From: Rosa chinensis
Lineage: Eukaryota; Streptophyta; Magnoliopsida; Rosales; Rosaceae
Length of the DNA: 64,000 nt
NCBI RefSeq assembly: GCF_002994745.2
Contig: NC_037092.1
Coordinates: 82,318,824-82,382,823 of the forward strand
Direction: 5' to 3'
A program made the position numbers and the translations under genes. The notes beneath the pieces are model-generated. The model saw nothing but the letters and a program-made list of their open reading frames with translations, did not search any database and was not told the DNA's origin. Shown piece after piece: positions 11,714-36,787 of the stretch; position 1 is the first letter of the stretch, and every line of letters starts with the position of its first letter.

Positions 11714-12428
11714 TCAGCCTGGACTCTTCTCCTTGTTCACATGTCTTGGGGTGCGTCCTTCATCATGGGCGGATGTAGACGTCTTTGGGCTTCTCTTGTG
11801 GGCTTGGTGCCATCTTCTAATAGGATCCGGTGGACACACGTGGTTGGGCTTCTCTTGTGGGCTTGCACCATCTTCTAACAGGATCCGGTGGACACACGTG
11901 GTTGGGCTTCTCTTGTGGGCTTGGCACCATCTTCTAACAGGATCCGGTGGATACACGTGGTTGGGCTGATCCCCTTGATATATGCTAGAGTCCAACCAAT
12001 GGCAGTCTTGTGCTTCTTCAACAGGTCCACCAACTTCCTTTCTTGCTCTACCTCCACAACGTCTTCTTCTTCATTATGGGCCACTTGGGCCTTCTTGTGG
12101 GCTCTGGGAGGGTCCAATAGCACACGTTCACTCCTAGTGATGATGGCTTGGGTTTGCTCTTCCCTGTTTCAGTAATCCGGCCCATGAAAGGGTTGTACCT
12201 CGGGCCTCCATCCACAACTACAGTTGAAGGCATTGATTCGAGACATGCCATGACTTTTCTTTTCCGTGACTTACGACAGCTTTCGGCTATTGTGTGTCTG
12301 TCACAGCTCCTTGAAATTCGTTTGGTTCCCCCACGCGCTCCCCACGCGCCAATAATCCTTGCTTTTCCGTGTTTTAGGGCAACTTTTAATCTAACGCGTT
12401 CTTTGACTCTCCGAGACTGTCCATCCAA
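11714..12428 (-). pseudogene. Remnant of Athila-type pol (segment just before reverse transcriptase)
   Basis: Minus-strand frames carry LVDLLKKHKTAIGWTLAYIK and GISPTTCIHRILLEDGAKP. This matches the conserved segment upstream of the reverse transcriptase palm in Athila-lineage elements (typically IKGISP..CMH.ILLE). It is broken by stops and frameshifts. After HRILLEDGA the sequence degenerates into tandem copies of the same peptide, encoded by the 59-bp repeat at 11,765-11,964. The catalytic reverse transcriptase core is missing. The frame at 12,048-12,428 upstream is of uncertain origin. Confidence 0.6.
11765..11964. repeat. ~59-bp tandem repeat inside the pol remnant
   Basis: About four units contain GGATCCGGTGGACACACGTGG, then TTGGGCTTCTCTTGTGGGCTTG, then CACCATCTTCTAA. 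GGATCCGG occurs at 11,823, 11,881 and 11,940, and a diverged copy starts near 11,765. On the minus strand each unit re-encodes a peptide like HRILLEDGA, so a piece of pol coding sequence was amplified in tandem. Confidence 0.85.
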
Positions 12429-12638
12429 GGGTGGAGATTTGCATGCCCTATTCTTATCATTAGGTGCATTATGGGGATGGGAACATTCATGCCAAAAACC
12501 TTCCTCTGATTTCAGATCCTCAACAATACCCTTCCTTTTTTTACGAACACCTCTCTGTCAACTTCAGTTCTCCTTTCTCAGATCTTCAGTCCTTCTCTCT
12601 CAGATCTTCAAGTGTCTCATTCTCTCAACCCATCACCA
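12319..12638 (+). promoter_or_regulatory. Upstream/leader block of the first WUS-like gene, shared with the second copy
   Basis: Several stretches match the DNA upstream of the second WUS-like gene (read on its own strand): GCGCCAATAATCCTTGCTTTTCCG (12,346 on), CCATCCAAGGGTGGAGATTTGCATGCC (12,421 on) and the leader CATTCTCTCAACCCATCACCA directly before the ATG. The first two also match the block at 30,937-31,200. Conservation upstream of the coding region suggests that gene and upstream sequence travelled together. No TATA box is certain here; the equivalent position reads GCATTATGGGG. Confidence 0.6.
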
Positions 12639-13247
12639 ATGGAACCACAAACCCAGTAACCAACCGAGGATGGAGGAAGCAACAAAACAGCCGGGAGTAG
12701 TGCTAACATGCTTTGCAGGCGGAGCAGTACCAGGTGGACTCCCACTCCAAATCAGATAAGAATCCTCAATGAGCTTTTCTACAGCAAGGGAGTTAGGTCC
12801 CCAACCGTAGAGCAGGTTCAGTGGATTTGTTTCCAGTTGAAACGGAACGGAAAGATTGAGGGCAAGAATGTCTTTTATTGGTTCCAGAACCACAAGGTTC
12901 AGGATAAACAGAAGAAGAAGAACACTTCGGATGTTCATGTGCCCATGCAAAGATCAGGGCTTATTGGTAATGGTACCAATTGGAAACCTAAGGATAACTA
13001 TATTAACTTTGGATCTTCTGCGTCTTCTTCTGCTTCTTCAGCTGGTGTTGGTGGATCCATTAAGGAGATTGAAACCCTTCCACTGTTTCCCATGCACGGT
13101 GAGGACATCTTTGGCAACATGAAGACTACTTCCGAGGGAGGAAGCGGCTATGGCTACTACTCTGGTGGCTCAGGCGGCTACAACGGTGGCTCTAGCATTT
13201 CTCTTGAGCTCAGCCTCAACTCCTCCGGATCTGTTGACTTGGCTTAG
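12639..13247 (+). pseudogene. WUS-like: WUSCHEL-like homeobox gene carried antisense in the Athila-like element (copy 1)
   Basis: The ATG at 12,639 is in frame with everything downstream but meets TAA at codon 7; the next in-frame ATG, at 12,708, opens 179 residues to a stop at 13,245-13,247. The homeodomain has [20 protein letters not shown], then RSPTVEQ, then [16 protein letters not shown]. Helix 3 then reads KVQDKQKKK where WUS normally has KARERQKK. After it come HVPMQR, a WUS box ([11 protein letters not shown], 13,074 on) and an EAR-like SLELSLN (13,200-13,220). WUS is a nuclear transcription factor of the shoot stem-cell niche; its WUS box and EAR motif recruit co-repressors. At about 203 codons it is shorter than typical WUS, lacking a central segment that copy 2 keeps. 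No introns are visible. It lies antisense to its host element. Confidence 0.85.
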
Positions 13248-15129
13248 TATAGTGTATTTCTATTTTATTTTATTTTTTTTGAAGTTTTTTTTTTTCAATA
13301 AGACTTAATGAATGTAGTTTTTTTTTTTGAAATTTTTGTTGTTGTTGAATTTTTCAATATATAGGACTCAAAATGAAAGAAGAAAAAAAATATAAATTTC
13401 TTACCCCACACTTAAATATTGCATTGTCCTCAATGTAATCAATTAAAAGCATGCACTGAAACACGTAAGCATAGAGGAAGGCATTTACGAAAACAAATCC
13501 TAAAATAAAAACAAAAGAGAAAAATTGAAAATAAAAAGAAATAGGGAAACAGAACCATACCAAGGACAAAAGTATAAATCCCTTCCCCCACACTTAAATA
13601 TTGCATTGTCCTCAATGTAATCAATCATAAGCATGCAATGAAACAAGTAAGCATGGATAGAAGGCATTTATGAAAATAAATTATAAAATAAAACAAAAGA
13701 GAAAAATTGAAAAATAAAAAAGAAATAGGGAAATGGAAAGCAAATCTGATTATATTCTGAATTGGGTTGCCTCCCAAATAGCGCTTGGTTTTAACGTCTT
13801 CTCAGCTTAGACGTGGTTTCCTCAGAAGAATGTAAGATTCTCTTCCCTTACTCGTTAAATGTGTATGGCTTGAATTGGAAAAGAGAAGGTCTTCTGTATT
13901 TAGGTTGTGAAGGATTCTGCATACGAGCAAGTCTTTCTTCAATCTTTCATGCACTAGGGATTTTTAGAAGGCTCGGTCATTTATGAAAATCCTGAACAAC
14001 ATTAAAAATTAAATAAGTTAGTAACTATACAATAAAAGAAACACAAATTAATATTTTATACAATAAAACGTCAATTTTTTTATTTTTTTATTTATTTATT
14101 TTACAAGTAAGAAATGTGAAACAAAACAAAACACAAGAATTTACAAGTATAAAGTATTCACAAGCATTTCTTTTTCCTTTTACAATTTAATTTATTTTCA
14201 AAACTTAGGTACGACAACAGGGAGTCTCGATGTGCAATGGGATTGAAACAGCTACCCTTTTTCAAGACTATGTTTTATCCAATATACCTTGGTGTATCAC
14301 AACATTTTTTTTTCTTCTTTTATTATAAAAATTATTGAAATCGAATCTAATTCCAAACGGTAAATCAAGTGAATGTGCGGCCCAAGTATAGTCGTCTAGA
14401 CACAAACTCCCTTTCAAATCTTTGGGGCAACCTTACTGAAATGGCCAGGTAGGGGAGGGCGACCACAAGTGGTAGAATCCATTTTGGCATGAGCTACTCC
14501 TACATAGTGGTTTAGGCCCATTTGCAAGCACTTCTGGATCCAAAAAAACCAGTCATGAACATTGTCCCCTTCCTTGACACCATTCCACATAGGCTATACT
14601 TACTAAGATGAAAAAAGTCATAAGTGTAAAGATAGTTCAACAAGTGTTAAGAAAGACCGCCCTCAACCTTAAGGGACCTGAACTAGGTACCAATAAGGGG
14701 TTTAGGCCTATATTAACAAAATAGACTTCACCTATTCCTCTCAATTTACAACTTACAATTAACACACTAACACACATTTTTTTTTTTTTACAAATTTCTA
14801 CCAACTTCTAATCCAAAAGAAATAATCTAACTATCAAATATTTAATTTTTCAACTAGAAAGTGAAATTGTAATAAGTAATAAGCAAATAGCAAATAGGCA
14901 AGATTAATTCTTTTTTATTTTTTTTCAACATGCTCAGAATTTATCCTTTTCTTACCACAATTTACTAATTTACTTACCCAAAGTACTTACCACAATTTCA
15001 AAAATAAGGTAACTACCACAAAAACTAACAAAACAAAGAAAATAAGAACACAAGTTGAAACACAAAACAAAAGTAAAATTTCTAGCTTCCCCAAAGGCAA
15101 ACTGAGCTAGGAATAAGATTTTACACCAA
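13248..15129 (-). other. Non-coding internal region of the Athila-like element with a 182-bp tandem duplication
   Basis: A unit beginning TATAAATTTCTTACCCCACACTTAAATATTGC at 13,391 recurs at 13,573, each continuing through CAATGTAATCAAT, AAGCATGCA and AAAAGAGAAAAATTGAAAA. At 13,761 the motif GGGTTGCCTCCCAAATAGCGCTTG parallels GGGTTGCCTCCCATGCAGTGCTTA at 11,678, so the two flanks of the WUS-like insert resemble one another. The rest is AT-rich and contains no supported gene. Confidence 0.6.
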
Positions 15130-15147
15130 TCCCCGACAACGGTGCCA
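15130..15147 (-). promoter_or_regulatory. Primer binding site, Asp-tRNA type (decayed)
   Basis: On the minus strand this reads TGGCACCGTTGTCGGGGA, differing at two positions from the common plant site TGGCGCCGTTGCCGGGGA. Both changes are G-to-A or C-to-T at CpG sites, as expected of methylated DNA. It lies six bases from the LTR at 15,154 and proves the minus-strand orientation. Confidence 0.85.
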
Positions 15148-15153
15148 AAAACT

Positions 15154-16311
15154 TGTTAGCCAAATAGCCACCCTCAAGTATAAGGGGTACAAGTAATAGT
15201 ATAGGGATTTAAGAAAGGTTGTCGAACCCACGAGGATTGGATTCCTTTCACTAGCTAGGTTGTTAACCTAAGGAGAGCTATAATATGCAAATGTACAATC
15301 ACAAACCTAAATTCACAAGGAAATCTAGGCTCATGGTGAGTATGAGCATTGTGGTGATAGTGAAATTGTTTTTGGTTTTTGAAGATAGTTTTGAATTGAA
15401 AACAACTAGATGCTCAAATATAAACTAAATTACTCTAAACTAAAATAGTGAAATAATGGATGAAGTTAGGAGTTGGATTGTCTACCACTAACCTCCCTTG
15501 CAAGTATTGAAGTTCAAATACAAGTGATGCTATTCTAATTTCCCAATTACCCTCTTTGCATCCGGATAAGACTACAAAGGCTTAAACTCCTTTAATGGTA
15601 TCAATTCCAACCGGATAAGTCTAGAATTAACTACCTAAGAACAAATCCTATTACCGGTTAAGTCTCAATTCATTGTTCCTAGATGCAAAAAGTTTTGAGT
15701 TTAGATAATCATGCAAGCAAACAAATCCTAGATCTAGGTGATTTTAACTCACAACCTTCACATGCACATAGAGGATGCTATCATGCTATCAATGCTCATG
15801 GTTAACTACTCCCTAAACATTTTTTCATGAGATGACAAACACAACACATTCAAAGTAGTTAAGTTTGAATGAATGCATTCACTTCTTGAATTAGCATATG
15901 AAGATGAAAATCACAAATAACATCAAATGCAAATAAAAAAATCAATTCATACAAGTTTGGCTAGGGCTTTCAACCCTAGCCCCAACAAAGTACTACTCAC
16001 TCATAATTACATATACTAACTTCAAAATCAAATTAAACACCAAAATATAATCTAGAGTAAAAGGGATAGAGTTGGCCTAGTGGTGTGTCGGATGGTCCCC
16101 AAGCTCACGTCTTGGTGGTGATGGTGGTGGTGGTGATTCCCTCTCCTTCTTGCTCTTGAAACATTGATGATAAAAGATAGTGAAGCTTGTATTATGTATT
16201 GTGTGAATAAGTGGACTAGATGGAGAAAATGATGATAGAAAAGAGAGTGGAGAAATGATGTAGTAGTGATGGTGTTAATGGAGATAGAGGATAAGAAATG
16301 GTGGTGGTGAT
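15154..16311 (-). repeat. Right LTR of the Athila-like element, piece 1 of 3
   Basis: This matches 7,912 to about 9,070 of the intact LTR. It stops at GTGGTGAT (16,304-16,311), where the hAT element was inserted. Confidence 0.95.
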
Positions 16312-16803
16312 TAGGGCTGGGCGTCTGGACCCGAGAACCCGACCCGAACCGATCAAAAAAGCCCTATTCGGTTTGGTTTTATGTTGGAAAATACCGGTTC
16401 GGTGCAAAGCCCGACCCGAATTACAATTTATTGGGTCGGTGTTGGGCTTGATATTTTTTGGGACCAAAAGACCGATACGAACCGAATCATCCTTCTGCTT
16501 TGCTTTTTCTTCATTCCCCTTCTACCTCTACTCTCTCTTCTGCTATCCTAGGTTGGATCACCTGCAAAAACTCCTTAAACTTAGGATTAGCAATCTCATC
16601 CTCATCCTCACTCCTCTTCTCTCCCATGCCGCCCCGACTTTTCCTGATGGCCTCCTGAGCTTGAGATTGAAGTAGATCGAAGTAGAGAGGAGTAGATCAA
16701 AGTAGATTGATGTAGAATGAATTGGAAGAAAGAGGAGAGTATTTGCAGTTGATGAAAGATGAGGAAGAGGAAAGGAGAAGAACTGCATAATGGGAATTGC
16801 TGC

Positions 16804-17979
16804 TGTTTGCACCCAAAATGAGCATTTTGGCATGATAAGGCACGTCTTGGAGAAATTAAGCCAATGTCAGTGGCTCAAGCTATATATTGTCGACAAGTTC
16901 GAAATATATTATTTAGAGGCTAAATAAAGCCTACTATGGAAGCATGGAAATGAAAAGTCAACTTTAGCACATTTTCCTACTTCGGCTAGGAGAAACCGAG
17001 CTAAACAAAGAAGGAGAGGCGGCAGACTAACCAAACGAAATCCAAATGAGCTAAAACTTTCCAGATTACATCTAGAAAGCCCAAGGATCATTTCTTATGA
17101 AGAGTGCCAGAGCTATTTTTGAGTGGAAGGCCTTCAAACAATCAGTCTAATTTTTTGCAGAAGCAAAACTGGATAACTAGACCTGTAAGAGGTCCAGCAG
17201 CTTTTCTGGCCCGACCACTATACCAAAAGCTCTGAATTTTTACCAGGATGATCTACACTCATAGTGGAACATTTGTTATAAAGAAGTCACGGTCAAAATC
17301 TGAATTCTTGATAGAGATATAATTGAAGGAATAAAGGAGCTGAAAGTGCTTCCTTATCTCCAAAATTCATCATTCCTTATCTCCAATTATGCTTCCTTAT
17401 CTCCTTATCTCCGAAATTCATCATTCTTTATCTCCAATTATGCTTCCTTATCTCCAAAATTCATCATTTCTTATCTCCAATTAATGCTCCACTATCATTT
17501 GTTTAATGCCAACTACTTTGGCATGGTAGCCTATAAATAGAGGTTACAATGAAACACTTAGACACACAATTCACAACAACAATCTCTAAGATTATCCAAG
17601 CCTCTCTAGAGCAACCCTCTCCTTCTCTTATCGGTAGTCATACTCCAGTCCTAGTCTCCTCAAGAGCCGACTGTTAGTGCTACCAAACCTTCCAGCCAAG
17701 CTAAAGTCACGCTTTAGCAAGTTCTCCTCACTTCCTAATAGTTCTCGCTCTGCTCGATCTACAACAACGAGTATCGATTGTGATTTTGAAGAAGCTCAGC
17801 AAAAGTCCTCGCCACGAGGCACAAAGAATCCCACGATGAGGTTGGTGCTCTCCTCGTCCACAATCGCTTGAAAGAAGTCAGGTCAAGGGACACCCCCGAT
17901 GACCGCACCCGAACGGTGCTGGCACGCCCGTGCAAGAAAAGAGACTGTTGACCAGCTCAAGGAAAACTGGAGCCAAACA
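16804..17979 (+). repeat. 5' LTR of gypsy element 2
   Basis: Starts TGTTTGCACCC and ends GAGCCAAACA. A TATA box, CTATAAATAG, lies at 17,531-17,540, so transcription should start near 17,565. The TCCTTATCTCC/AAATTCATCATT motif recurs several times at 17,350-17,480. Confidence 0.95.
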
Positions 17980-17981
17980 TT

Positions 17982-18000
17982 TTGGCACGCCTAGTGGGAC
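17982..18000 (+). promoter_or_regulatory. Candidate primer binding site of gypsy element 2
   Basis: TTGGCACGCCTAGTGGGAC lies two bases after the 5' LTR, where the minus-strand DNA primer tRNA pairs. I recognise this form as common in Tat-type elements but do not assign the tRNA. Confidence 0.6.
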
Positions 18001-18036
18001 TTACTGCGAGCTATAAATCACACCACTATTAAGAAG

Positions 18037-20220
18037 TTGAGCTACTTTCAATTCAGACTTCGAGAAGCCATTGGGAAGTCAAGCGCAAACCCTTATCAAA
18101 AGGTTTACGTTAACTGCCCGAAACATAAGACCTCCAGTTATAGAGCGCACTCGCGTGCAGACTGTCGTGGTCTTTCTGAAGAACAAGTAATCCAAAGATT
18201 TTCTCCCCAACCTCCATCGACAGAGATGTCAACTGAACGAGGAGGAAATCGACATCCTACTACTGAAGGCGAGAAAGTTCCCGCCACCCAGCCTAATCAG
18301 GCTGGCGATACGACTAGCATCACCCAGGCAGCCGCGAGCGCAATTACAACTATTAACTTTGTGCCTATTCTCGTTCCAAAAAATGCAACCATAGAAGAGC
18401 GGCTTAATGTCCTTCAACAGAATTCTGCCACATACCATGAGAAGATGGAAAAGGCCCTTGCGGAGGACCGTCGACGGCTTAATGAGTTCACGATCTCAGT
18501 CAAGAAGCATGAGCTAGCGGCACAACAAACACAAGGGCAATTGGATGGCATGAACCAAAAAATGTAGAAGAACCATGAAGAGCTATTGGTCGCAAGCAAA
18601 CACATTGCTTCAGAAGTCGCGACGATTCGCAAAGAAGGATCTAACGTCGCGACCCAGGTGGCCATGTAGAAGGCTGACCTTGATCAGGCTAGAGAGGTTC
18701 TACATAAAACACTGGGAGATCCTAGCACCATTCTAGGCTCTCTAGGTCAGTCCCCCATATTTGGCAAGTACATAGCACCAAATGCTCGAGAAAAAGCAAG
18801 CGGCGGCAGTACAGCCACATCCGCTACTGCCATATCAGTAAAAGGTAAAGAGACTACTCTGGCAACGGGTGGGAAGAACAACGCTGCGTCATCAGTCACG
18901 CAAGGGACCAGGACTTTGAAAATCAATGAATGGGCCATTGTTGATCATAGCCTGTTTCCCCAATATGACAGCGACGGAGTTGAATACGTGCACCACAATC
19001 CACCTCCAGCAAGCCATTATGGTATCGACTGGGTTGAAAGTCCAGTGAGGGTCACAACAGTCACAAAGGGTCAGCCAGCAGTGGGTTTTACATCGCAGAT
19101 ATCAACCCAACACAAAATGACCCATGGAGGCAACATATCTTTGGTTAATCAGGCTTCACAGGCGCCACCGCTGATCTGGCCAGTTGATGATACAGTGGTT
19201 CACCCACCTCCTCCTGATCCAAGATATATAAGGAGAGAGGAGGTAGAAGCAATGATCAGGGCCGCGAACCAAAGGGCTAACCTAGAGGAGGCCTACCACG
19301 GGCCCTTCCCACAACATATTACACAGACACCTTATCCTAGGGAATATAAGAACATTACGTTCTCTACTTTCTCGGGAGAGGAAGTCGAAAATGTCGCCGC
19401 CCATTTGGTTAGGTTTCGAGTACAGTGTGGTCAGTACCAAAACGACGACAATCTGAAGTGTAACATCTTCGCTACTTCTTTATCGGGGTCTGCCTTCACC
19501 TGGTTCACTAAGCTGCAACCGGGATCAGTTGCGAGTTAGCCCGCGATGGAAAAGCTGTTCAAGGAAACCTTCGGGACTATCAAGCTGGAAGTAGATCTGG
19601 CTTCACTCACTCATATGGCTCAACAGCCAACTGAATCCTCTGTCATGTACCTTCAGCGCTTTCAGATCCAGAAAGGAAAGTTGAACGTGATTCTGCCGGA
19701 AAAAGAACTGGTGAAGTTGGCAATCAAAGGCTTAGAGCCCCGCCAACGCAAAAAACAGCATGGAAGCATGTTCAATTCCATGGGGGAACTGATTACAGAA
19801 GTAGGAAGTTTTGAGCACTTGCTCAGGGAAATGGACGCTATGAAAAACGCCTCAAAGGGGACATACATCCCAGGGAAACGCCGATTAGTGGCTGCACTTA
19901 GCCATCAATCCAGTTCCTTTGATCCTTACTACAAGAGTGAGGAATCTAGTACAACAGAGACTGATGAGTCTGAAGAAGACGAGATAACTGCCCTGGAACT
20001 CACTGGGAAAAAGGCTTCAACGCTAAAGCAACTGAAGCTGTGCAAAGAGCCGGTCAAGCTCAAGTCGGTGGTTTTCACCAAACCAGAGTTCGCAAGTTAT
20101 ACTTATGACGTGAACAAAACGCATGAAATCTTGGATGAAATGATCACCGCGAAGATGGTGAAAACCGACATTGGCCCATTTCCCAAACCAGAGCAGCTAA
20201 GGGGGGAAGAAATACTGTAA
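18037..20220 (+). pseudogene. gag of gypsy element 2 (broken)
   Basis: Frames at 18,037-18,567, 18,916-19,539 and 19,546-20,220 are in the same phase and separated by stop codons, so they form one original gag. The N-terminal part is coiled-coil-like (heptad-rich, about 18,400-18,560). The retrotransposon gag core lies at about 19,330-19,860 (FSTFSGEE, AFTWFTKLQPGSV, then LFKETFG and YLQRFQIQKG). A zinc-knuckle-like YCKLHNMWNHNTTDC spans 20,209-20,256 in another frame, so a frameshift near 20,205 precedes it. Gag would form the particle that packages element RNA. It cannot be translated as one protein here. Confidence 0.85.
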
Positions 20221-20230
20221 ACTCCATAAC

Positions 20231-22181
20231 ATGTGGAATCATAATACAACCGATTGTGTTAAGCTGAAGGATCAGATCCAAATCTGGTTAAATAACGGTA
20301 GTTTTCAAGTAGAGGCGCCGACAACAGCAGTAGCGTTGGTAGACCTAGATCCCTTCCCAGATACAGGCATCAACATGGTGGACGTGGCATGGGGTGAAAA
20401 AGATCAGCAGAATCAAAGTCCAGACCACGCTGCTAAGGATTCGAAAAGGGTTGGAGACAAAGTCGTGAAGCAGGAATCCAAGACTCGTTTACCCATTGTC
20501 CTATGCTTGCGGTGCAAGGAAGAATGTGACACTCAAGCCCTGCATGAGGAAACATCCCAGACTGTCAGCTTTGGATCTCTGCCGCCAATACGGTTAGTAT
20601 CATCCTCTAGAAACTTCCAACCATGCAGCCCAAGAGTATACAGTGGTTCAGAAACTCCTTTTCCAAGGGACTCAAACTTATTCAAAAAGTTGAAGACCGC
20701 GAGGGAAGAAGGGCAAGCAGATAAGCGGCAAGGGGATTTAACCAGACCTTACATTCCGCCAGTGTCGACGTCCTCGATCAAAGAAGGGAGATGGTATACA
20801 CAGAAGAAGGGCAAGGAGGTGGAGATGAGCTCTTTAAGGTAGAGAAAACTCCAACAGAGGTTTGGAGAAGCAAAGCGAACCTTGGAAGCACTAGATCAAG
20901 GACTGATCAAACCATCGCAATTACTGAAACCTCCAGAAGAGTATCAGAGACAATTGGAGGCATTGGCCTCCAAGAGATTCGTTTCCCTGCAAGTTCAGAA
21001 ACAGCAGCACAAAGTATGGCACAAAGAGCAAAAGCTACGTGCCCCCAAGAGCAGCGCTCAGGAGAAGTCCCTAGTTCCCGCGAGGCAAGAACCGCCGCCA
21101 GCTCGTAAAGTCAATGTTTGGATGAGAGTATCTCGCGAAGGAAGAAATAGCGAGCCTTCCATCTTTGACAGGCTGGGGGGCAAAGACAATCGGTCCGCAA
21201 TTGTGCAGAAAGTTCAAAGCTTGGTAGTCGCTCTCCCAGAGGAAGTAACAAATTTTAGAATCACTGAACCAGGTTCCCATGGTACAGGAGCACGAACAAG
21301 CCAAGGCGGTGATCCCCGCAGAAGAATCATTGGTTGCTTTCATGGTTAAACGATTCAACGCCGATATCCCAGTAGATGAACCCAAGCTCAATCTTGATGA
21401 TGACATAGACGAAACAGAAATGGTGGATACCTCTTGCAATATGGTTTATGTGCTCCCTGCTAAGTATGCCTTACCAGTCGCTGCACAGGAATGCGTAGAA
21501 GCTGACGCGATTGGAGAACAGCAGTTGCAAATCACTTCAGCCGCAACAATGCAGATAAAAGAAGTAGTGTTCCTTGAGACTGAAGATGCTAACAGTAAGG
21601 GTTTCTTCATGAGCTTCATAAGACCCACACCCGCCATGGTGCAACACATGCGACCTTTGTATATCACAGTAGAAATTAATGGGACTAAGCTCAGCAAGAT
21701 AATGGTTGATACCGGCGCGGCTGTGAATGTCATTACTACCAGAACCATGCATCTACTAGGGATCAAGAAAGAGAATATCCAATCCACGTCCCTTACGCTA
21801 AAGAACTTCGCGGGGACTGTGACCAAAACATTGGGTTTGATTTTCCTACGAGTCAAGGTGGGTCCAGCAGAAGGGGTTTACGCTTTCTTTGTTACAGATT
21901 GCTATGCGGCATATAGCAAAATTTTGGGCCGCGACTGGATCCACAGGAGTTATTGTGTCTCATCCACCCTTCATCAGCAGTTGATCATATGGGACAGAGT
22001 CGCAGACAAGGCGGAAATTGTTAAAGCAGACCCGCGACCTTTTTCGGTGTCTACCAACTGCTTGGACGCAAGGTATTACCTAGAACCAATCTCTCCTTTA
22101 CAAGTCGTTGGTATTGATGATAAAGGCTGCCCCATAGGGGTGACGACCTCTGAATTGGCACAATGGGGGCTCACGGTCTAA
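20231..22181 (+). pseudogene. gag-pol linker and aspartic protease of gypsy element 2
   Basis: Frames at 20,231-20,842, 20,882-21,349 and 21,279-22,181 overlap in different phases, showing frameshifts. The protease motif IMVDTGAAVNVIT lies at about 21,700-21,740, with the catalytic DTG intact, followed by FLRVKVG and ILGRDWIH. This is the retroviral-type aspartic protease that would cleave the polyprotein. The region before it is a Lys/Glu-rich linker. The domain looks complete, but its upstream frame is broken. Confidence 0.85.
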
Positions 22182-22233
22182 AAAACGACCTCGAAAGGCC
22201 TGGATATGCGGTGCCATCTCTAAGTGTTAATTA

Positions 22234-23973
22234 ATGAATCACGAACTCATGGAGGAAGAGGTAGAGGCCTTCCATTCCTTGTATGAGAGGCTATCCTCAT
22301 ACTTGGTGGAAAAAGAGGCCTATGATCAAGTCGCGACCTTAGAAATTGTTAATGAAGAGTTCACGGACAAAGAAGGGGAGGAAGAAGAGATTCAGCTTGC
22401 TCCAGCGCAATTGGATGACACACCTCCGAAGGTTAGGGACCCTACTAAAAAGGTCAATCTGGGAACAACTGATGAGCCTATAGAAGTGGCTATCAACACT
22501 TACTTAGAGCCTAGCGAGAAACAAAGGCTCGTCGAATTACTGCTGGAATTCAAGGACTGCTTTGCGGAAAAATATGAGGACATGCCAGGCCTATCACCAG
22601 ACTTGGTATGCCACCAACTACCAACGCTGCCTAATAAGAGGCCTTTGAAGCAAGAGCAGCGAAGAATGAGCTCGGAGACCCAAGTTCTGGTTAAAGAGGA
22701 AGTCGAAAAGATGCACAAGTCGGGCATTATTAGGGTAGCCAAGTACAATCAGTGGTTGTCCAATATAGTGCCTGTTCGCAAGAAGAATGGCAAGATGAGG
22801 ATCTGTGTGGATTACAGAGACCTTAATTTGTCTACACCTAAAGACGTCTACCCCATGCCTGTTGCAGACATGTTGGTAGACGCGGTTGCAGGGCACGAAC
22901 TGTTGTCTTTCATGGACAGCACAACGAGATATCACCAGATTCCGGTCGCGGAAGAAGATAGACACAAGACCGCATTCCGCTGCCCTGGGTTCACGAGAGT
23001 TTTTGAATATGTGGCCATGCCTTTTGGACTGATGAATGCCGGAGCAACATATCAGAGAGCCATGAACCTGATCTTCCATGACATACTTGGGAAGATCTTA
23101 GAGGTTTACATTGATGACGTCGTCGTGAAGTCTAAGAAGAGTGGAGATCACTTCACAGATCTCAGAAAAGTTTTCGAGCGCATGCGGCTACACAAGCTCA
23201 AGATGAATCCCGCCAAGTACGTTTTTGGAGTTTAGGCAGGCGATTTCCTGGGATTCATTGTCCATCAAAGAGGCATTGAAGTCCCTAAGGATAAGGCAAA
23301 CGCGGTCATCAACGCATCTCCCCCACGAACGAAGAAAGAATTACAACAACTATTGGGTAAGATCAACTTTTTGCGACGATTCATTTCTAACTCTGAGGGC
23401 AAAATCCAGTCGTTTTCCCCACTGCTGAAGTTGCAAGGACAGAACGAGTTTGTGTGGGAACCTAAACATCAAGAGGCTTTCGACAAAATCAAGGCCTATC
23501 TTGAGAGCCCGCCAGTGCTTGTTCCTCCCAGAGCTGGATTTCCATTAAAGTTGTATGTTTCAGCAGGACATGTTATCTTTTACCTCAGTAGGACACTCAC
23601 AGATTGCGAAACAAGGTACACTCCAATGGAAAAGCTGTGTCTTACATTATACTTCTCAGCATGCAAGTTGCGGCATTACATGTTGTCCTTTACTACTTGC
23701 ATCATTGCTCAAACCGATCTAGTCAAGTATATGCTATCGCGACCTATCCTGAGAGGCAGTATTGGCAAGTGGGTGCTCGCCTTATCAGAATTCTCACTAC
23801 AGTATGTCCCACAAAAAGCAGTAAAGGGGCAAGCTATCCCGGACTTTCTGGCACATCACCCTATGCTGGATGTCCCCGTGGTTAGAGATTTAGAGGTCGC
23901 TGCCACAAATTTAGATCGCCCAGACTTGGTGTGCTTACCAGAGTACGCCACGCTGTATCAAACCACAATCTGA
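22234..23973 (+). pseudogene. Reverse transcriptase and first RNase H of gypsy element 2
   Basis: The conserved order is visible: MRICVDYRDLN, then YPMPVADMLVD, then FGLMNAGATYQRAMN, then EVYIDDVVVKS (catalytic YIDD, about 23,105-23,118). A TAG at 23,233-23,235 interrupts the frame, which resumes as GDFLGFIVHQRGIEV and the connection to the RNase H domain (FVWEPKHQEAFDKIK...). The RNase H part appears shortened around PLKLYVSAGH, so its first catalytic positions may be lost. The module would copy element RNA into DNA. Confidence 0.9.
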
Positions 23974-24600
23974 CTCCAGCCCTGGGTGTTATATTTTGAC
24001 GGGTCATGAACGGATACGCTAGCAGGAGCAGGAATTGCACTGGAGAATCCGGCTGGAGATCACTTTTCGTACTCATTCCAGTTGGAGTTTCAATGTACCA
24101 ACAACCAGGCAGAATATGAGGCCTTAATCATAGGCCTAGAAATACTGTTGGAAATGGGAATCAGAGATGTACAAATATTTGGCGATTCTCTCTTGGTTTT
24201 CAATCAGTTGTGCAATGAGTTCAGATGCAATAGCTTCACGTTGGTCCCTTATTGGAACAAAACATTAGAACTGTTAGACCAATTTGATAACGTACATCTT
24301 GAGTACATTCCTCGCGAGCGAAATTTTGCAGCAAACGAGTTGGCCCAGTTGGCAACAGGGGTAACATTGAGATATGACGTGCGGGAGAGAATCCTTAAAG
24401 TCGAGCGTCGCAATCTTCCTTCATGGATGGCGAGAAGAGATCCTCCAGACGATACCTCAATCGCTACCCTGGAATCCATTGACGTGGATTGGCGTATCCC
24501 TTTGATCAATTATCTCAAGCATCCTGATCAGACCACGGATAGAAGGATACGCTATCTTGCCCTTAACTACTTCCTCAGAGGTGATGAACTTCGCAGATGA
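23974..24600 (+). pseudogene. Second (archaeal-type) RNase H of gypsy element 2
   Basis: After a stop at 23,971-23,973 the translation reads VLYFDGS, a TGA, then the domain: AGAGIALENP, NNQAEYEALIIGLEI and VQIFGDSLLVFNQL, ending YIPRERNFAANELAQLA. This is the acquired 'archaeal-type' RNase H between the reverse transcriptase module and integrase, diagnostic of the Tat lineage. The D-E-D residues (FDGS, AEYEAL, GDS) are present, but the TGA lies just after the first. It ends in TGA at 24,598-24,600. Confidence 0.85.
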
Positions 24601-25752
24601 GGAGTAGATAGCGTGGATTTCAGATGTGTTTATGGCCGCGAAGCGAAACAACTCATGCACTAAGTTCATTCTGGCATTTGTGGCGCTCACCAAGCAGGTC
24701 CAAAGATGCAATGGTTGCTCAGACGACATGGATATTTTTGGCCCAGTATCTTGAAGGATTGTATCGCGTTCGCTAAAGGTTGTTTGGACTGCCAAGCTTA
24801 TGGGCCTGTCCAGCATGTTCCTAATATTCCAATGCAGCCCATTATACAGCCTTGGCCTGCAAGAGGATAGGCGCTAGATTTAATTGGGATGATTCACCCA
24901 CATTCATCACTTCAACACAAGTTCATCATCATCGCGACTGATTTCTTTACAAAGTGGGTTGAAGCATTATCTTTGAAGGAAGCATCTGGCGGCATGTTGC
25001 GACTATTCCTATTCAGAAACATCATCTGCAGATTGGGGATCCCAGAAGTTTTTGTTTCGGACTGGGGGGCAGCTTTCATGGGTGGTGAAGTTGATAAACT
25101 GGCAAGAGAATGGGGAATACAGTTCATCCATTCCAGTCCATATTATGCTCAGTCTAATGGTCAAGCGGAGGCCAGCAACAAGATCATTATCAATTTGCTG
25201 AAGAAACTGTTGGAAGTTAATCCACGACAGTGGCATGAGACACTTTATGAAACTCTTTGGGCCTACCGCACCTCTAAGCGGAATCCCACCGCAACAACAC
25301 CTTATGCTTTGATGTTTGGCCATGATGCAGTCCTGCCGTTGGAAGTCAACATCCAATCATTACGAGTTCAAGAGCAACATCATCTCATTGGAGAAGAGTA
25401 CGTTCAGGCTATGTGGCAGGAACATGAAGACCTTAGCGAAAAGCGCTTGGAGGCTTTAGATAATTTGGTCATGGAAAAGCAACGAGTCGCTCACGCCTAT
25501 GAAAAGTGGACGCGGGGAACGAGTTACAGCGAAGGAGAGTTGGTTTGGAAAGCAGTTCTCCCGCTTGGCGAAAAATTAGATGGTCGCGGCAAATGGACTC
25601 CAAGATGGGAAGGCCCGTACATCATCTATAAAATCTTAGAGAAAGGAGCTTTTCATCTCAAGGACCTGGATGGAGATGTCCATCATAACCCTATCAATGG
25701 GAGATACTTGAAGAAATACTTTCCCAATGTCTGGGACTCGGAGGAGTCGTAG
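24601..25752 (+). pseudogene. Integrase of gypsy element 2
   Basis: The zinc-binding HHCC region is readable at about 24,660-24,800 (HSGICGAHQAG, RRHGYFWP, GCLDC) but has stop codons. The catalytic core shows the triad: D in ALDLIG (about 24,877), D in VSDWGAAF (about 25,060) and E in NGQAEASNK (about 25,167). It continues to LWAYRTSKR and a C-terminal WEGPYIIYKIL segment, ending at 25,750-25,752. The 287-codon frame from 24,889 is open. Integrase would insert the cDNA, and GCTGC is the duplication it left. No chromodomain is seen, in keeping with a Tat element. Confidence 0.9.
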
Positions 25753-26422
25753 ACAGTTTATTCGTATAAGACATGGGGGACAATTCTAGTGTTCCTACAC
25801 TCGCAAAGCCCATTCATGAAGGCCTGTTTTTGAGGCCCATAATCATTTCTTCGCTATGCCTAGCAACACTAGGGGGGCAACACTAATACTAAGCCCATTT
25901 AGCCTAACAACAACAAGCAAAAAAAAAAAAATTGCGTTAACTTTGTTTTAGGTTTTATATTCATATTTCAGTTTTTGGTTTATCTTTGTTCTTTATTTCG
26001 TTGGTTGTTTCTTTATTATTAGAGTCAAATTGAATTTTGGGTAAATATCTTCTTCATCGTAGGGCGCATCTAATGGGATGTGAGGTCTAGTTTGGATATG
26101 AGAAGTGCTGACAAAAGGTCTCGTCCCCTGTCAATCAAGTGAGCTGAGCTCCGCCAAAATCGTTCCTCTCTTCACCTGGTCATGTTCCAAAGGAGTTACC
26201 ACAAGGAGAAGAGAAATATCCCTAAGTCCAAAACGTTTTTTCTTGTATGTTGCGTCACTTTATGTGTTGTTCTTGTTTTTATTTTGAGTCTTAGGATGCC
26301 CTTTCAACTGTCTATGATGAGTTTATATCTCCAAAATTATGGTTAAAAAAAAAAAAGTCATAAATACAACTCTTAGGGGGCAATTCTAAGTGTTCCTACA
26401 CTCGCGAAGCTACTAAACCGAG
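25753..26422 (+). other. Post-pol non-coding region of gypsy element 2 with polypurine-like tracts
   Basis: No gene is seen. Short G-rich tracts resembling the true polypurine tract at the 3' LTR occur at about 25,773 (GGGGGACAATTC), 25,871 (GGGGGGCAACAC) and 26,376 (TAGGGGGCAATTC). The first and third are followed by the same GTGTTCCTACACTCGC, so about 40 bp is duplicated. Confidence 0.5.
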
Positions 26423-29285
26423 TCAGCGGCTTCGGAAACTTTTTCTAGCTTTGCCCTCGTAGGAAAGGCTGAGCTCAAGGGAAGTGTGAGAGCCACCACC
26501 GTGACCGCCACCTCCTAATAGGAGCATTTTAATGCGACGTTTTAACTGTTATTTCCCTATATTTTCTGCGTTATTTCCTTAATAAAACTCTGTTTAGGAA
26601 AGTTTCCATTCTTTGATTGGGAAAGTTCCTAATTGTAGAAAGTTTCCGTTTTGTAGTTTCTATTTTTCATTTTTAGAAAGTTTCCCATTTTAGTTTAGGA
26701 AAGTTTCCATTTCTTATTTTAGAAAGCTTCTATTTTCAGGTCTTTGGAATAAACAAGCTAAATTGAGTTCATAAATAGGAAGAGAAGCTTCATGAAGATG
26801 ACATGGCAAGAAGGTGACAACTTGGGAATTAAAGATGATTGATTGAGGATTTCAAGGAGAGATTTTCTTGGGAGACTTTTATGGAAAGAAATATTGTTGG
26901 AGGAATAATTTGGTGTGATTGCCAACGTGAAAATCAGAAATAATCAAGGAGATGATGCCAAGAGAGAAACAAGGAAATGACGTGGAAAATCAGAAAATAT
27001 AATGGGTGGAGGAAATCAAAGGGAGAGTTTTGAGGGAAAGGATATTTTGTTGGAGAGTAATTATGTTGTCAACGTGAAAAGGGAAGAGATGATCTTGGAA
27101 ATAAATCATGGGAGCATTTTAAAGAAAGATAAAGTTTCAAAACAAGGCTAGGTTCATTCCCTACTTTCTCTAAATTCATTTTGGCTGAAATTGGTGAAGT
27201 AAATCAGCATTTATTCATGATATTTTGGTAACTTCTCTCTCCTAAGATATTCTTGGCCGAAATTCATGAAGAAAATCAGAATAATTTCAAGGAAATTCGG
27301 CAATTAAATATTAGGGAGGTATTTTAGAGAATTTTGATTGGTGGGAACACATCACAAGGCTTACTTGGCATTCTATGATTGGTTGGACCACATCACAAGC
27401 TTACTTGGCGAATTATCATTGGTTGAAGCTATGTGTAAAATTCTGATTGCTTTGTGAACCCTAGCCGTGCTCCTATATATACCCACCTCTTTGACGTTGA
27501 GAAGAGTTCCACACACCTTAGAAAAATTCAGAAAAATTATATTGTAGCCGTGAGCTTTTCTCTTCCTCTCTCCATCCTCTAGTCATCTCCATGGGTTCAA
27601 GCAAGGCCAAAGGAAGAAGAAGAAGCCGTGAGCACCACCATCCATCCCCATCCTTGAAGCTTGCTTTCGAGTTTCAAGAGACCATAACGTTAATCATCCA
27701 TCTTCATCTTCCATCCACGGTGTAATTCGACCTCTCCTTTGTAGACCTTGTTTTGAATTCGTTGGTTATGTACTAGTTGACATTTATGTTTGAACAAAAT
27801 TTTCAATTTTGAAATTTTATATGATCGAATGAAATTTTCAGATTCTATTATTGTAATTTGAGAGTTGCTTATGTGAGTTTGTTTAATTAAATTTGCTTTA
27901 TAGATATCTTTTGTATTTTAATCTTATGTGGTTCAAAACACTTAGGGTTTTGATATGAATGGTGCTAGATTTAAGAACATGAAATCAACTTTTTGTTTTG
28001 TGTAACTTGAATCGAAGTAGTAAAGGTTTTGGAAAAAAACCGAATTTAATTAAAGAGGATTGCAATTAGGTGGACTTTTTCATATTAAGTTGCACACTTG
28101 AGTTGATAGCCTTTCTATGTGTTTCATGCGTTAAACATGTCATGATTAACTAGCTTTCTAGGGCTTGATTACATGTTTGATAGGATTAATCTTTGTGCTT
28201 TCACTTCGGTTAATTAGCATTGAAAAGTAAAAAATGGGAAATTATTTGCTTTCAAATATTTCACATGATCAACTCCTTTCTCATGACTTAGATGAACAAT
28301 ATTAGGATTTAATCGAATTTGATCATAGTTTCGGTTTTGATCTTTGTTCTCTCATTCCATTCGTGTAATTATGTTTTTAGTTTTCTTTGTTTTCTTTACG
28401 TAGTTTATTTCCGAAAACCAAAACCTAAATCCCCCTTTAATTTCGTAATTATGTATATACTTTATTTGATTTTTGTAAATAATATACTTTGTGTCTTTAT
28501 TAATTATTTAATTGTCCTATATTGACATGTGTACCCTCAATCCCCGGATTAGATCGATCCCTACTTGCTTATGCTAATAATGATATTTAGAGGGTTAAAT
28601 TATGCGCTTGTTCTTAGCGTATCACCTCCATTGGAAGTAGTCTTCATGTTGCCACAGATGTCCTCACAATGCGCGGGAAACAGTGAGAGGGTTTCAATCT
28701 CCTGGTGATCTTCTCCTCTTTGTTCCATGAAAGTTTGTTCTGCATTCATGTCAAAGAAAGTAGTACTAGTTTCCCCTCAAGCTGAGATTGAACAATCCTA
28801 GCACTCTTCTCCATGTTCATGGATCCATAACCGCCATATTTCCCCATCTGCCCGTTAAAAGCAATCATCACACCAGCGGAAGAAGCAGAAGCAGGTGCAG
28901 AAGATCCAAAGTTAATATACTGATCCTCATGTTTCCAATTGGTAACATTGTCATCACCAACAAGCCCTGATCTTTGCATGGGCACATGAACATCCGAAGT
29001 GGACTTCTTCTTCTGCTTCTCCCGAGCCCTTTGGTTCAAGAACCAAAAATAGACGTTCTTGAACTCGATCTTGCCATACCATTTTAGCTGGAGACAGATC
29101 CTCTGAATCTGCTCTATAGTTGGGGACCTATCTCCCTTGTTGTAGAAAAGCTCCTTGAGGATTCTTATATGATCTGTAGTGGGAATCCACCTAGTACGGC
29201 TCTTCCTGCGAAGCATGTTAGCACTACTCCTGGCTGCTTTGTTACTTCCTCCATCCTCGGTTGGATGCCGGTTTTGTGGTTCCAT
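26423..29285 (-). pseudogene. WUS-like: WUSCHEL-like homeobox gene carried antisense in gypsy element 2 (copy 2), split by a solo LTR
   Basis: The first part (29,285-28,625) starts MEPQNRHPTEDGG and holds the homeodomain: RWIPTTDHIRILKELFYNKG, RSPTIEQIQ, GKIEFKNVYFWFLNQRA. Helix 3 has WFLNQ instead of the usual WFQNH. HVPMQR is kept. A frameshift near 28,770-28,785 creates an early stop at 28,746. In the other frame the sequence continues through TFFDMNAEQTF to a weakened WUS box (TLSLFPAHCED). The gene is interrupted at 28,624 by a 2.1-kb solo LTR. Beyond it, 26,515-26,423 encodes a Gly-rich stretch and an EAR-like SLELSL, ending at TGA. It keeps a central segment missing from copy 1. It lies antisense between pol and the PMD gene. 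Function is lost; the family call is firm. Confidence 0.85.
26516..28624 (+). mobile_element. Solo LTR inside the second WUS-like gene
   Basis: This 2,109-bp block starts TAATAGGAGCATTTTAATGCG (probably TG originally) and ends CTTAGCGTATCA. It is flanked by the duplication CCTCC at 26,511-26,515 and 28,625-28,629. WUS coding sequence resumes on both sides, so the insertion is defined to the base. A TATA box (CTATATATAC, about 27,473-27,482) and a pyrimidine-rich leader follow. The 45-codon frame at 27,591-27,728 lies in the leader and matches nothing I know. No internal region or second LTR is present, consistent with recombination between LTRs. Confidence 0.85.
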
Positions 29286-29436
29286 TGGTGATGGATTGAG
29301 AGAATGCGAGAATTGAAGAGAGATGATGATGAGTAATTAAGAAAGATTGCTGTTAGAAATATTCGAGTTGATGAAATGATTTTGGGATTGGAAATTTGGG
29401 TTTATAATGTGGAGGAAGATATAGGCATGCAAATAT
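29286..29436 (-). promoter_or_regulatory. Leader and TATA region of the second WUS-like gene
   Basis: On the minus strand this reads ATTTGCATGCCTATATC, then CCTCCACATTATAAACCC (possible TATA box, about 29,397-29,405), then a C/T-rich leader ending CATTCTCTCAATCCATCACCA before ATG. The last part is nearly identical to the leader of copy 1. The promoter assignment is inferred from composition and conservation. Confidence 0.5.
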
Positions 29437-29699
29437 CCACCCTTGGATGAAGCTCAATTTCAAAACTGATGTCAGTAAATCGAGATTAGTGATTCCAAAT
29501 CTCGGGAAAAAAGGGACTAGCAGCATGTGAGGAGCAATTTTTGAGGAGTTAGCTATTATTAGAGGATTAATAGCATGTGAGGAGACCGAACGGTTTTCGA
29601 GGAGGTAACTGTTCCATTCACGAGATTATTTTTTCACGACCGTTGTTTTTCAACGAGTGATTAGTGCCTTAAATCTCGGAAAAGAAGGAATTATTGGCG
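29437..29699 (-). repeat. Upstream repeat block A, behind the second WUS-like gene
   Basis: About 263 bp from CCACCCTTGGATG to AATTATTGGCG, highly similar to block B at 30,937-31,200. It contains internal repeats of GCATGTGAGGAG and GGTTTTCGAGGAGG, and CTCG-ending motifs such as CAAATCTCGGGAAAA. On the minus strand it is immediately upstream of the WUS-like leader. Part of it is recognisable upstream of WUS-like copy 1. Confidence 0.85.
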
Positions 29700-30936
29700 C
29701 TAAGAGTCTTGAGTTGGGAGCCAGCAAGTGGATCCAAAAGATACATATTTTCTCAAAACGCTCGCCGCAAGACTCTTTTTGACGCGGAGCATATTTTAAA
29801 AGTTCATGTTATTTTCAATATACAACTATGGGGGCCTATATTTGGGACCTTGCGAGACACAATTATTGGCTTCTCACGGATATTTGGATATCAGGATAAG
29901 AAAATATTATTGTATTCATAAAGTGGCTTTGCGGCCAAAAGCAGTACATTCATTACAAAGCCAAAAGTGGCTAGAATACAAAACAGGAATATTCGGATAT
30001 CTTCTGAATCTTTTCTCAAGTGGAAGAAGCTATGGAATCCAACGTCGGGTTGAGCCGCGTCATTATCTCAAGGAGGGGCAGACTTCAGGGAAGAAAAAAG
30101 AGCAGTAACGGAGCCCCCGCGCCCCCTTTACATGGAAGCAGCAGAGGAATACAACATGTGTTTGGCCAACACCATTATCCATAAGAAGGGGAGACTCCAG
30201 TGAAAGAAAATGGAGCCTCCAAGCCCCTAAATTGGAAGCAGCTATGGAATCCAACGCCGGGTTGAGACGTGCCATTATCTCAAGGAGGGTCAGAGAGTGA
30301 AGGAACCGAATATCAGCTTGAGTCTCTGCACCCCCTTTAGCCTTGGTAACCACTATTAGTTGGACGTGAAGTATAGGAACAACCATTCTGTTGCTTGAAC
30401 CCATTCCTTCAAAGAGTCCATCCCTTCTCATCCTTCCAAGATTCTATCAAGAAGAGAAAGGGGGAGAAGGAGGTGAGAACCAAAGCCCCTTCCATCTGGA
30501 GGGCACAACAAGGGCCGGGTCTAGAAGGAAGGAAACAGAGGAGGAAAGACGAACCTCAGAGTGGCTATCCTCCCTTTCTCCGTTTCGCTCCGCGTGTGGG
30601 ATTCTAACAAAAATGATCTCGCATGATCGTGGATCCCACACTCGGAGCCCCTTCGCGTTTCTAAACCAATCTGAAGCCTGGCATTGTTGTTACAGGATTC
30701 CAGAAAGGCGAAACACGGGGTTGCCTAAGATTACGCAACAAGGCCTAACCTAGGCTTAAGATTACGCCATAAAGCCTAAAATTTAGAGGCTAAAGATCAT
30801 TTCATGAGGGGAAGATTTGTGAAGAAGGAGAAAGAGAAGCAAGGACTGAAAGGCCATTTCTTGAATGTTTCAGAAAATTTGTTGTGAGTATTCCTTGTCC
30901 AAAATACAACTATTTAAAGGGACTTCAGGAAAATCC
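29700..30936. other. Spacer between the two upstream blocks, no clear gene
   Basis: Moderately GC-rich, with a partial internal duplication (GAAGCTATGGAATCCAACGTCGGGTTGAG at about 30,025 and GCAGCTATGGAATCCAACGCCGGGTTGAG at about 30,239). On the minus strand, downstream of block B, are a TATA-like TTTAAATAG (about 30,911-30,919) and a short frame, so this could once have been the first part of a third antisense transcript. I recognise no domain in any frame, including those at 30,063-30,431 and 30,391-30,753. Confidence 0.35.
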
Positions 30937-31200
30937 CCACCCTTGGATGGATGGTTAAAGAGTCAAACTGATGTCAGTAAATCAAGATTAGTGATTCCAA
31001 ATCTCGAGAAAACAGGGACTAGTAGCATGTGAGGAGCGGTTTTTGAGGAGTTAGCTATTATTAGAGCATTAATGGCATGTGAGGAGACCGAACGGTTTTC
31101 GAGGAGGTAACTATTCTATTCACGAGATTATTTTTTCACGACCGTTGTTTTTCAGCGAGTGATTAATGCCTTAAATCTCGGAAAAGAAGGGATTATTGGC
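30937..31200 (-). repeat. Upstream repeat block B
   Basis: A direct repeat of block A in the same orientation, 1.5 kb away, with few differences (CAAATCTCGAGAAAA for CAAATCTCGGGAAAA). Its start, TTTGACTCT...CCATCCAAGGGTGGGGATTT on the minus strand, is closer to the region before WUS-like copy 1 (TTTGACTCTCC...CCATCCAAGGGTGGAGATTT, 12,391 on) than block A is. A further partial copy of GCATGTGAGGAGACCGAACGG follows at 31,199. Confidence 0.85.
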
Positions 31201-31261
31201 ATGTGAGGAGACCGAACGGTTTTTGAGGGGGCCTACAGAGATTGGCCCGCAAAGCTCAATT

Positions 31262-34200: not shown

Positions 34201-34620
34201 ATTATGGGGAAGACAGAAGCATAGATCGATGGTTTGGGTGATACCCACCGCATCCCATCTGGCCAAATCTCTGGCTCGGACCTCCTGATACCAAACCTTT
34301 TCCTCGGGAGCGATGGTAGGCCAGAAGCCCACTTTCCTCCTTGGTCCCCAACTGCTAAAATCACCAGGCACCTGCCGAAGAGCCGCTATGGGACGGCGGA
34401 TAGGAAGCCCGTAATAGGCCATAGCATCATCTGGCAAACGATCGCGAGGTGTGGGACCCAGACACGCTTGACTATCACCGACACCAAAGCCCATCAGTCG
34501 ACTTCTCTCCTCTCCGGTCTGACTTCTACATCGAACACTCATGTTAGTCCGCCAGGTGAATGCGGCTTTCTAAGTGATTTCATCTGCTTGATCGATAACG
34601 AATGGTTTCTTGGATGCCAT
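31262..34620 (-). pseudogene. Spliced plant-mobile-domain (PMD) gene carried antisense in gypsy element 2
   Basis: The apparent ATG at 34,620-34,618 (MASKKPF) is followed in frame by a TAG, then a long frame from 34,542 with PMD features (PF10536, aminotransferase-like): RWDAVGITQTIDLCF, FNFQFGQISITLLDVLTITG LPIDFDP, then FWLQIYFPLF. A TAA at 33,579-33,577 interrupts; the same frame continues to about 32,990. Three introns follow: 32,989 to about 32,911 (donor GTAAGT), 32,806-32,726 (GTAATT...TATAG) and 32,638-32,564 (GTAAAC...GATAG). The last two are phase 0. The last exon, 32,563-31,262, is acidic then coiled-coil-like. Total about 1,000 codons with two stops. PMD proteins occur both in host genes and in plant transposons; their role in transposons is unclear. 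Confidence 0.8.
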
Positions 34621-35612: not shown

Positions 35613-36787
35613 TGTTTGGACCCAAAATGAGCATTTTGGCCTGATAAGGCACGTCTTGGAGAAATTAAGCCAATGTCAGTGGCTCAAGCTATATATTTTC
35701 GACAAGTTTGAAATATATTATTTAGAGGCTAAATAAAGCCTACTATGGAAGCATGGAAATGAAAAGTCAACTTTAGCACATTTTCCTACTTTGGCTAGGA
35801 GAAACCGAGCTAAACAAGGAAGGAGGGGCGGCAGACTAACCAAATGAAATCCAAATGAGCTAAAAAATTCCAGATTAAATCTAGAAAGCCCAAGGATCAT
35901 TTCTTAAGAAGAGTGCCAGAGCTATTTTTGAGTGGAAGGCCTTCAAACAATCAGTCCAATTTTTTGCAGAAGCAAAACTGGACAACTAGATCTGTAAGAG
36001 GTCCAGCAGCTTTTCCGGCCCAACCACTATACCAAAAGCTCTGAATTTTTACCAGGATGATCTACACTCATAGTGGAACATTTGTTATGAAGAAGTCACG
36101 GTCAAAATCTGAATTCTTGATAGAGATATAATTGAAGGAATAAAGGAGCCGAAAGTGCTTCCTTATCTCCAAAATTCATCATTCCTTATCTCCAATTATG
36201 CTTCCTTATCTCCATATCTCCGAAATTCATCATTCTTTATCTCCAATTATGCTTCCTTATCTTTAAAATTCATCATTTCTTATCTCCAATTAATGCTCCA
36301 CTATCATTTGTTTAATGCCAACTACTTTGGCATGGTAGCCTATAAATAGAGGTTACAATGAAACACTTAGACACACAATTCACAACAACAATCTCTAAGA
36401 TTATCCAAGCCTCTCTAGAGAAACCCTCTCCTTCTCTTATCGGTAGTCATACTCCAGTCCTAGTCTCCTCAAGAGCCGACTGTTAGTGCTACCAAACCTT
36501 CCAGCCAAGCTAAAGTCAGCTTTAGCAAGTTCTCCTCACTTCCTAGTAGTTCTTGCTCTACTCGATCTACAACATCGAGTATCGATTGTGATTTTGAAGA
36601 AGCTCAGCAAAAGTCCTCGCCACGAGGCATAAAGAACCCCACGACGAGGTTGGTGCTCTCCTCGTCCACAATCGCTTGAAAGAAGTTAGGTCAAGGGACA
36701 CCCCCGACGACCGCACCCAAACGGTACTGGCACACCCTCTCAAGAAAAGAGACTGTTGACCAGCTCAAGGAAAACTAGAGCCAAACA
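35613..36787 (+). repeat. 3' LTR of gypsy element 2
   Basis: A 1,175-bp copy of 16,804-17,979, starting TGTTTGGACCC and ending GAGCCAAACA, followed by the duplicated GCTGC. TATA box at 36,340-36,349. Confidence 0.95.

Follow-up and report, generated by a model that had tools for sequence, protein, structure and literature searches.

Two decaying WUSCHEL-like copies carried antisense by two related LTR retrotransposons in Rosa chinensis

Analysis of a 64-kb window of Rosa chinensis DNA (the whole stretch of 64,000 nucleotides, to which all positions refer) revealed two WUSCHEL-like (WUS) copies, each residing in an LTR retrotransposon. The best explanation of this arrangement, in which we place moderate confidence, is a single capture of processed WUS followed by shared descent or exchange, with a passenger that is now decaying. 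Copy 1 lies on the plus strand of a minus-strand element (element 1) and copy 2 on the minus strand of a plus-strand element (element 2). The first-pass annotation of this DNA had described both copies as antisense to their host elements, and the strands were confirmed for both; its coordinates were also nearly exact, the ATG-to-stop extent of copy 1 being 12639-13247 and the ATG of copy 2 being at 29285. The following features were recognized in element 1.

7912..10068, minus strand: 3' LTR, a direct repeat with 15153-16311, 37359-37535 and 62720-63571; termini TGTTAGCC..GATCCAACA
15154..16311, minus strand: 5' LTR, first piece, 19 differences in 1157 sites; the remainder is at 37359-37535 and about 62720-63571
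15130..15147, minus strand: likely primer-binding site, TGGCACCGTTGTCGGGGA, from sequence reading
11878..12168, minus strand: fragment resembling a reverse transcriptase start, KLVDLLKKHKTAIGWTLAYIKGIS
12639..13247, plus strand: WUS copy 1, with homeodomain, VPMQR, WUS box and EAR-like end; intronless; codon 7 is a stop

Element 1 is bounded by the target-site duplication (TSD) CTCTT/CTCTC, in which four of five positions match. Its 5' LTR lies in three pieces because later insertions split it. The interval 12319..29699, to which the arrangement had been assigned, does contain the WUS loci, but element 1 is much longer, as the nested inserts put the end of its 5' LTR at 63571. The first insertion into this LTR (16312-37358) is flanked by an 8-bp duplication, GTGGTGAT, and has the ends TAGGGCTGGGC.., which we take to be hAT-like; element 2 sits within it, flanked at either end by the TSD GCTGC. 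The second insertion (37536-62719) has a terminal A run and is flanked by duplicated AAGAGTGAAATGA (~13 bp), and is presumably LINE-like, judging by the poly(A) end and the flanking duplication. The nesting implies that element 1 arrived first, then the hAT-like element, and then element 2.

The primer-binding site TGGCACCGTTGTCGGGGA is presumably Athila-like, and we take the fragment at 11878-12168 to resemble the start of an Athila-type reverse transcriptase. A Pfam search with the frame of this fragment returned no family above the cut-off (two weak, senseless matches), as did searches with two ORFs overlapping it in other frames; among the element 1 ORFs searched, which included three frames in the stretch near 11.7-12.6 kb, the homeodomain was the sole Pfam match above the cut-off. 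The element may belong to the Athila group, judging by the short fragment and the primer-binding site.

Element 2 has the following parts.

16804..17979, plus strand: 5' LTR, 39 differences in 1175 sites from the 3' LTR; TSD GCTGC/GCTGC
35613..36787, plus strand: 3' LTR, direct repeat of the 5' LTR
17995..25752, plus strand: broken gag-pol with gag (weak), protease, reverse transcriptase, RNase H, second RNase H and integrase (weak), by Pfam
32986..34569, minus strand: two antisense plant mobile domain (PMD) ORFs, Pfam PF10536, E 3.4e-18 and 7.7e-4
28625..29285, minus strand: WUS copy 2, main part, with homeodomain, VPMQR, a frameshift and an altered WUS box
26516..28624 (about), minus strand: insert in WUS copy 2, solo-LTR-like, ~2.1 kb, flanked by CCTCC, from sequence reading
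26413..26515, minus strand: C-terminal part of WUS copy 2 with SLELSL; stop codons TGA (26421-26423, same frame) and TAG (26413-26415, next frame)

Element 2 is Tat-type. Its gag-pol is spread over several broken frames and has the Tat hallmark, a second RNase H (PF13456, E 6e-21, 24010-24597) after the native one (PF17917/PF17919, 23236-23970); the gag, the integrase and the second PMD match (7.7e-4) are below the Pfam curated cut-off. As in the Tat elements Retand, Grande and RIRE2, antisense ORFs are located between pol and the 3' LTR, and the dual RNase H and the antisense PMD ORFs agree with this affinity. Unlike these relatives, element 2 has no TRP28 (PF04195, the Retand hallmark) in its three longer antisense ORFs, two of which contain PMD and the third no family, and it carries the WUS-like copy as an extra antisense passenger. 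The antisense ORFs span 31262-34569; they include a PMD that extends over two ORFs and may be interrupted by an intron, and a 433-aa ORF with no Pfam family. According to a study of orchid elements, PMD is a domain linked with Gypsy elements of plants (PMC9289625).

Copy 1 runs from ATG to stop in one frame apart from the codon-7 stop, and the next in-frame ATG after that stop is at 12708. Its homeodomain matches Pfam PF00046 (E 3e-10), and a PDB search, made with copy 1 only, gave two matches, Protein WUSCHEL (E 1.5e-25, the best) and STENOFOLIA (STF; 1.1e-22). The homeodomain of copy 2 also matches PF00046 (E 2.8e-9), and its WUS identity follows from alignment to copy 1; chance similarity was rejected in view of the homeodomain matches in Pfam and PDB. 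The WUS box ETLPLFPMH and the EAR-like SLELSLN of copy 1 share one frame, and most of the central stretch kept by copy 2 is missing from copy 1. A scan of a viral contig collection found no relatives of copy 1. Two repeats flank copy 1 on the minus strand, GGGAGGCAACCCA present twice (11675, 13763) and ATTGAGGACAATG three times (11495, 13422, 13604); as sequence features, they would suggest an internal duplication within element 1.

Copy 2 extends from its ATG down to about 26413. Its WUS box, ETLSLFPAH, is in a different frame from its homeodomain, which implies a frameshift somewhere beyond residue ~138, where the copies cease to align. Copy 2 is not a single open gene, as shown by this frame change before the WUS box and by the CCTCC-flanked insert that splits off the C-terminus. 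Both copies had been credited with a homeodomain, HVPMQR motif, WUS box and EAR-like motif. This held for both homeodomains and for the motifs of copy 1, which share a frame, but it overlooked the early stop of copy 1 and the altered, out-of-frame WUS box of copy 2. A motif of ~36 bases occurs behind pol (25777-25812) and beside the 3' end of copy 2 (26377-26412), as GGGGGACAATTCTAGTGTTCC and GGGGGCAATTCTAAGTGTTCC, and this end of copy 2 may be a recombination point.

Neither copy has an intron between its start and stop codons, and their coding sequences are contiguous except for the insert in copy 2. The WUS genes of Medicago (PMC6305195) and loquat (PMC9669421) have three exons and two introns; therefore both copies are processed sequences and not the host gene. 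Since an antisense intron could not be spliced from the element's own RNA, the processing would have occurred before or at capture. The homeodomain, WUS box and EAR-like motif are common to the copies and to host WUS (Arabidopsis WUS, Medicago HEADLESS, loquat EjWUSa), whereas the copies differ from the latter not only in being intronless but also in the altered homeodomain, the stop or frameshift and, in copy 1, the mostly absent central region.

Elements 1 and 2 have homologous, colinear LTRs, positions 116-760 of LTR1 aligning with 68-695 of LTR2, at nearly equal distances from the LTR starts (656 aligned bp, 71%, E 3e-78; K2P 0.196 over 389 sites of the LTR core), which rules out wholly unrelated hosts. 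The two elements are indeed distinct, as first annotated, but the label of two different families does not do justice to these LTRs and to the upstream sequence common to both WUS copies. The latter comprises a module found at three sites.

12346..12450, plus strand: module at WUS copy 1, two anchors, 12346-12381 and 12421-12450
29426..29700, minus strand: module A, adjoining WUS copy 2, direct repeat of 30926-31200 with 22 differences in 272 sites
30926..31202, minus strand: module B, repeat of module A, without WUS

In a search of both strands of the window at a cut-off of 72%, each of the two anchors (36 and 30 bases) is present at three sites only, one beside copy 1 and the others in modules A and B. 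For the region upstream of copy 1, the best local scores were 272 and 323, with maxima of 201 and 234 in 200 dinucleotide shuffles (z 6.4 and 7.5), and the opposite-strand control scored 104 with a shuffle mean of 106 (z -0.1). A composition artefact was rejected, as the anchors are restricted to three sites and the control on the opposite strand does not rise above background. Alignment of the copies is poor from the anchors to the 5'UTR, poorer than in the LTR core, and a 773-bp BLAST match upstream of the copies bypasses anchor a; comparison of the 3' flanks was weak (z 3.3, the top shuffle exceeding the observed score). All three sites have a common module edge near GCCAATAAT. A present or former role as an antisense promoter is probable for the upstream module. 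In element 2 the 275-bp module is duplicated, module B being followed by its own TATA-like stretch and no WUS; sequence reading also places a TATA-like stretch upstream of copy 2.

The homeodomains of the copies have changes in common. The identical change from Arabidopsis WUS (AtWUS) is observed in both copies at 11 sites, and seven further sites are changed in both, differently; four sites of each class are among those where AtWUS and STF agree (46 of 66), which were taken as conserved. The residues common to both copies include C36, K40, K62 and K66 (homeodomain alignment numbering, as below).

The colinear LTR homology, the common module, the common intronless ATG-to-stop extent and the common homeodomain substitutions point to one origin, and not to the recurrent association that had been proposed. 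Two observations speak against a single capture: the common homeodomain changes could be ancestral in host WUS, and the poor alignment between the anchors and the 5'UTR would not be predicted by descent of the whole cassette. Two independent captures, in which WUS mRNA was taken up separately, each time antisense and downstream of a pre-existing module, would agree with the onset of strong identity near -34 from the ATG, as for mRNA copies, with the existence of module B without WUS, and with the introns of WUS genes, on account of which each copy must be processed. Nevertheless, we regard this alternative as rather unlikely, since orientation, module and ATG-to-stop extent are alike, the copies have homeodomain residues in common that differ from AtWUS and STF, and the WUS divergence overlaps that of the LTR core. 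The similar module edge at the three sites and the module duplication in element 2 would also fit a separate carrier of module plus WUS, either a third mobile element or a retrogene locus of host WUS, that entered both LTR elements by insertion or recombination; the common LTR segment would then need a separate explanation, and we consider such a carrier unlikely.

The order of divergence supports travel of the copies with their elements. WUS copies 1 and 2 differ by K2P 0.155 (410 sites), or 0.127 in the WUS-box stretch (a further 78 sites), overlapping the value for the LTR core. In contrast, the LTR pair of element 2 differs at 39 of 1175 sites (K2P 0.034) and that of element 1 at 67 of 2163 (three pieces, two of which overlap by 7 bases), the two pairs being equal within error. 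Divergence between the WUS copies thus exceeds that within the LTR pairs about fourfold, and the odds of a site difference are 4.9 times (element 1) and 4.6 times (element 2) higher in the WUS copies (Fisher p 4e-17 and 2e-13). At equal rates, this implies that the copies split before either element landed here, and since they diverged elsewhere, other WUS-bearing copies must exist or have existed. An origin of one copy from the other by local duplication, once the elements were in place, was rejected on the same grounds (K2P 0.155 versus about 0.03 for the LTR pairs). The proposal that the WUS copies are mobile is borne out by these divergences and by the LTRs and TSDs that bracket each copy.

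The divergence between the copies could not be told apart from the neutral expectation, the power being low. Changes confined to one copy fall on conserved homeodomain sites in 12 of 16 cases, compared with 46 of 66 sites overall (p 0.79), and in 16 of 23 when the seven differently changed sites are added; they include A59 to V and R60 to Q in copy 1, and Q55 to L and H57 to Q in copy 2. The omega between copies, calculated from 160 codons (three segments with 161 aligned codons, less the one containing the stop; C-terminus excluded), is 0.77, with low power (bootstrap interval 0.41-1.70; 24% of bootstraps at least 1), and neutral simulation gave a median of 0.76, with 52% of runs at or below the observed value. 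The simulation expects 2.3 stops between the copies and gave one or none in 33% of runs. Differences at codon positions 1, 2 and 3 number 26, 18 and 20, and the segment omegas are 0.69, 1.08 and 0.96; the homeodomain alone, with few sites, has an omega of 0.53, which leans to some constraint. These values fit a passenger, and there may have been weak past function or constraint.

A benefit of WUS to the element, suggested by the first-pass annotation, finds no support in this comparison of copy with copy, in which omega is close to the neutral median at low power, conserved sites are not spared and both copies carry lesions. A functional cargo, with an expressed antisense WUS protein helping the element to reach or expand meristem and germ-lineage cells, could draw on the single frame of the copy 1 motifs after the stop (homeodomain, VPMQR, WUS box, EAR), with a possible restart at ATG 12708, on the TATA-like stretch upstream of copy 2, and on an orchid Gypsy family described as retaining an active captured enzyme (PMC9289625). 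Given the neutral-looking divergence and the damage to both copies, we consider it very improbable. We give even less credence to antisense RNA driven from the module and processed into small RNAs with an effect on the element or on host WUS; for the antisense ORFs of plants, PMC7264820 considers antisense promoters and a possible control through dsRNA, but with a difference of ~14% between the copies it is less likely that both would target host WUS. It is also improbable, though somewhat less so, that the two copies are dead members of a multi-copy LTR lineage in which a WUS-like gene, in antisense, is driven by a promoter module of its own, with some copies intact and meristem-expressed; were this true, such copies might alter stem-cell fate or give the element access to the germ lineage.

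Under the preferred single capture, a processed, intron-free copy of host WUS would have been taken up once, in antisense orientation, by a Tat-related LTR element, at a site beside the upstream module, which was probably an antisense promoter, past or present. The cassette would then have reached two element lineages, either by descent or by recombination between elements sharing the LTR segment, the recipients being the Tat-type element 2 with its antisense PMD ORFs and element 1, which is short, non-autonomous and probably chimeric, with internal remnants of Athila-like character. Reverse transcription would have propagated the cassette as passenger DNA. The antisense orientation may have been tolerated because the genomic RNA thereby gained neither an intron nor a poly(A) signal on the sense strand, and the WUS protein, presumably doing no work for the elements, would be left to decay.

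Host gene capture by LTR elements is known. The orchid Ty3/Gypsy elements that captured a 2-ODD RNA demethylase are Tat-type, with an extra gene taken up and replicated (PMC9289625); their cargo is reported there as conserved and active in vitro, whereas the WUS cargo is neutral-looking and broken. Host gene sequence inside LTR elements is also described in PMC11963269 and PMC7264820 for maize Bs1 and other gene-transducing elements, from which the present case differs in the antisense orientation of WUS, the upstream module and the presence in two element lineages. The main text of these two papers on antisense ORFs contains no 'wuschel' or 'homeo-' words, nor does the orchid paper. Among the open-access titles and abstract starts listed, with subscription journals mostly outside this scope, there was no report of WUS cargo in a retrotransposon, and no stem-cell master regulator in two related lineages was seen among these listings. 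The copies suggest a route by which an antisense cassette passes between element lineages, and dispersed WUS copies would confuse WOX gene annotation.

The LTR ends of element 1 diverge unequally: compared with 7912-10068, 19 of 1157 sites differ at 15154-16311 and 42 of 829 at 62742-63571 (Fisher p 1.7e-5), which may reflect gene conversion or a mosaic LTR. The LINE-like insertion at 37536-62719 holds further repeats. A diverged tandem array of 71-base units occupies 43481-44433, and another, of 79-base units, is located at 3934-4692, where four of the seven listed register copies, counting the reference, are at least 97% alike.
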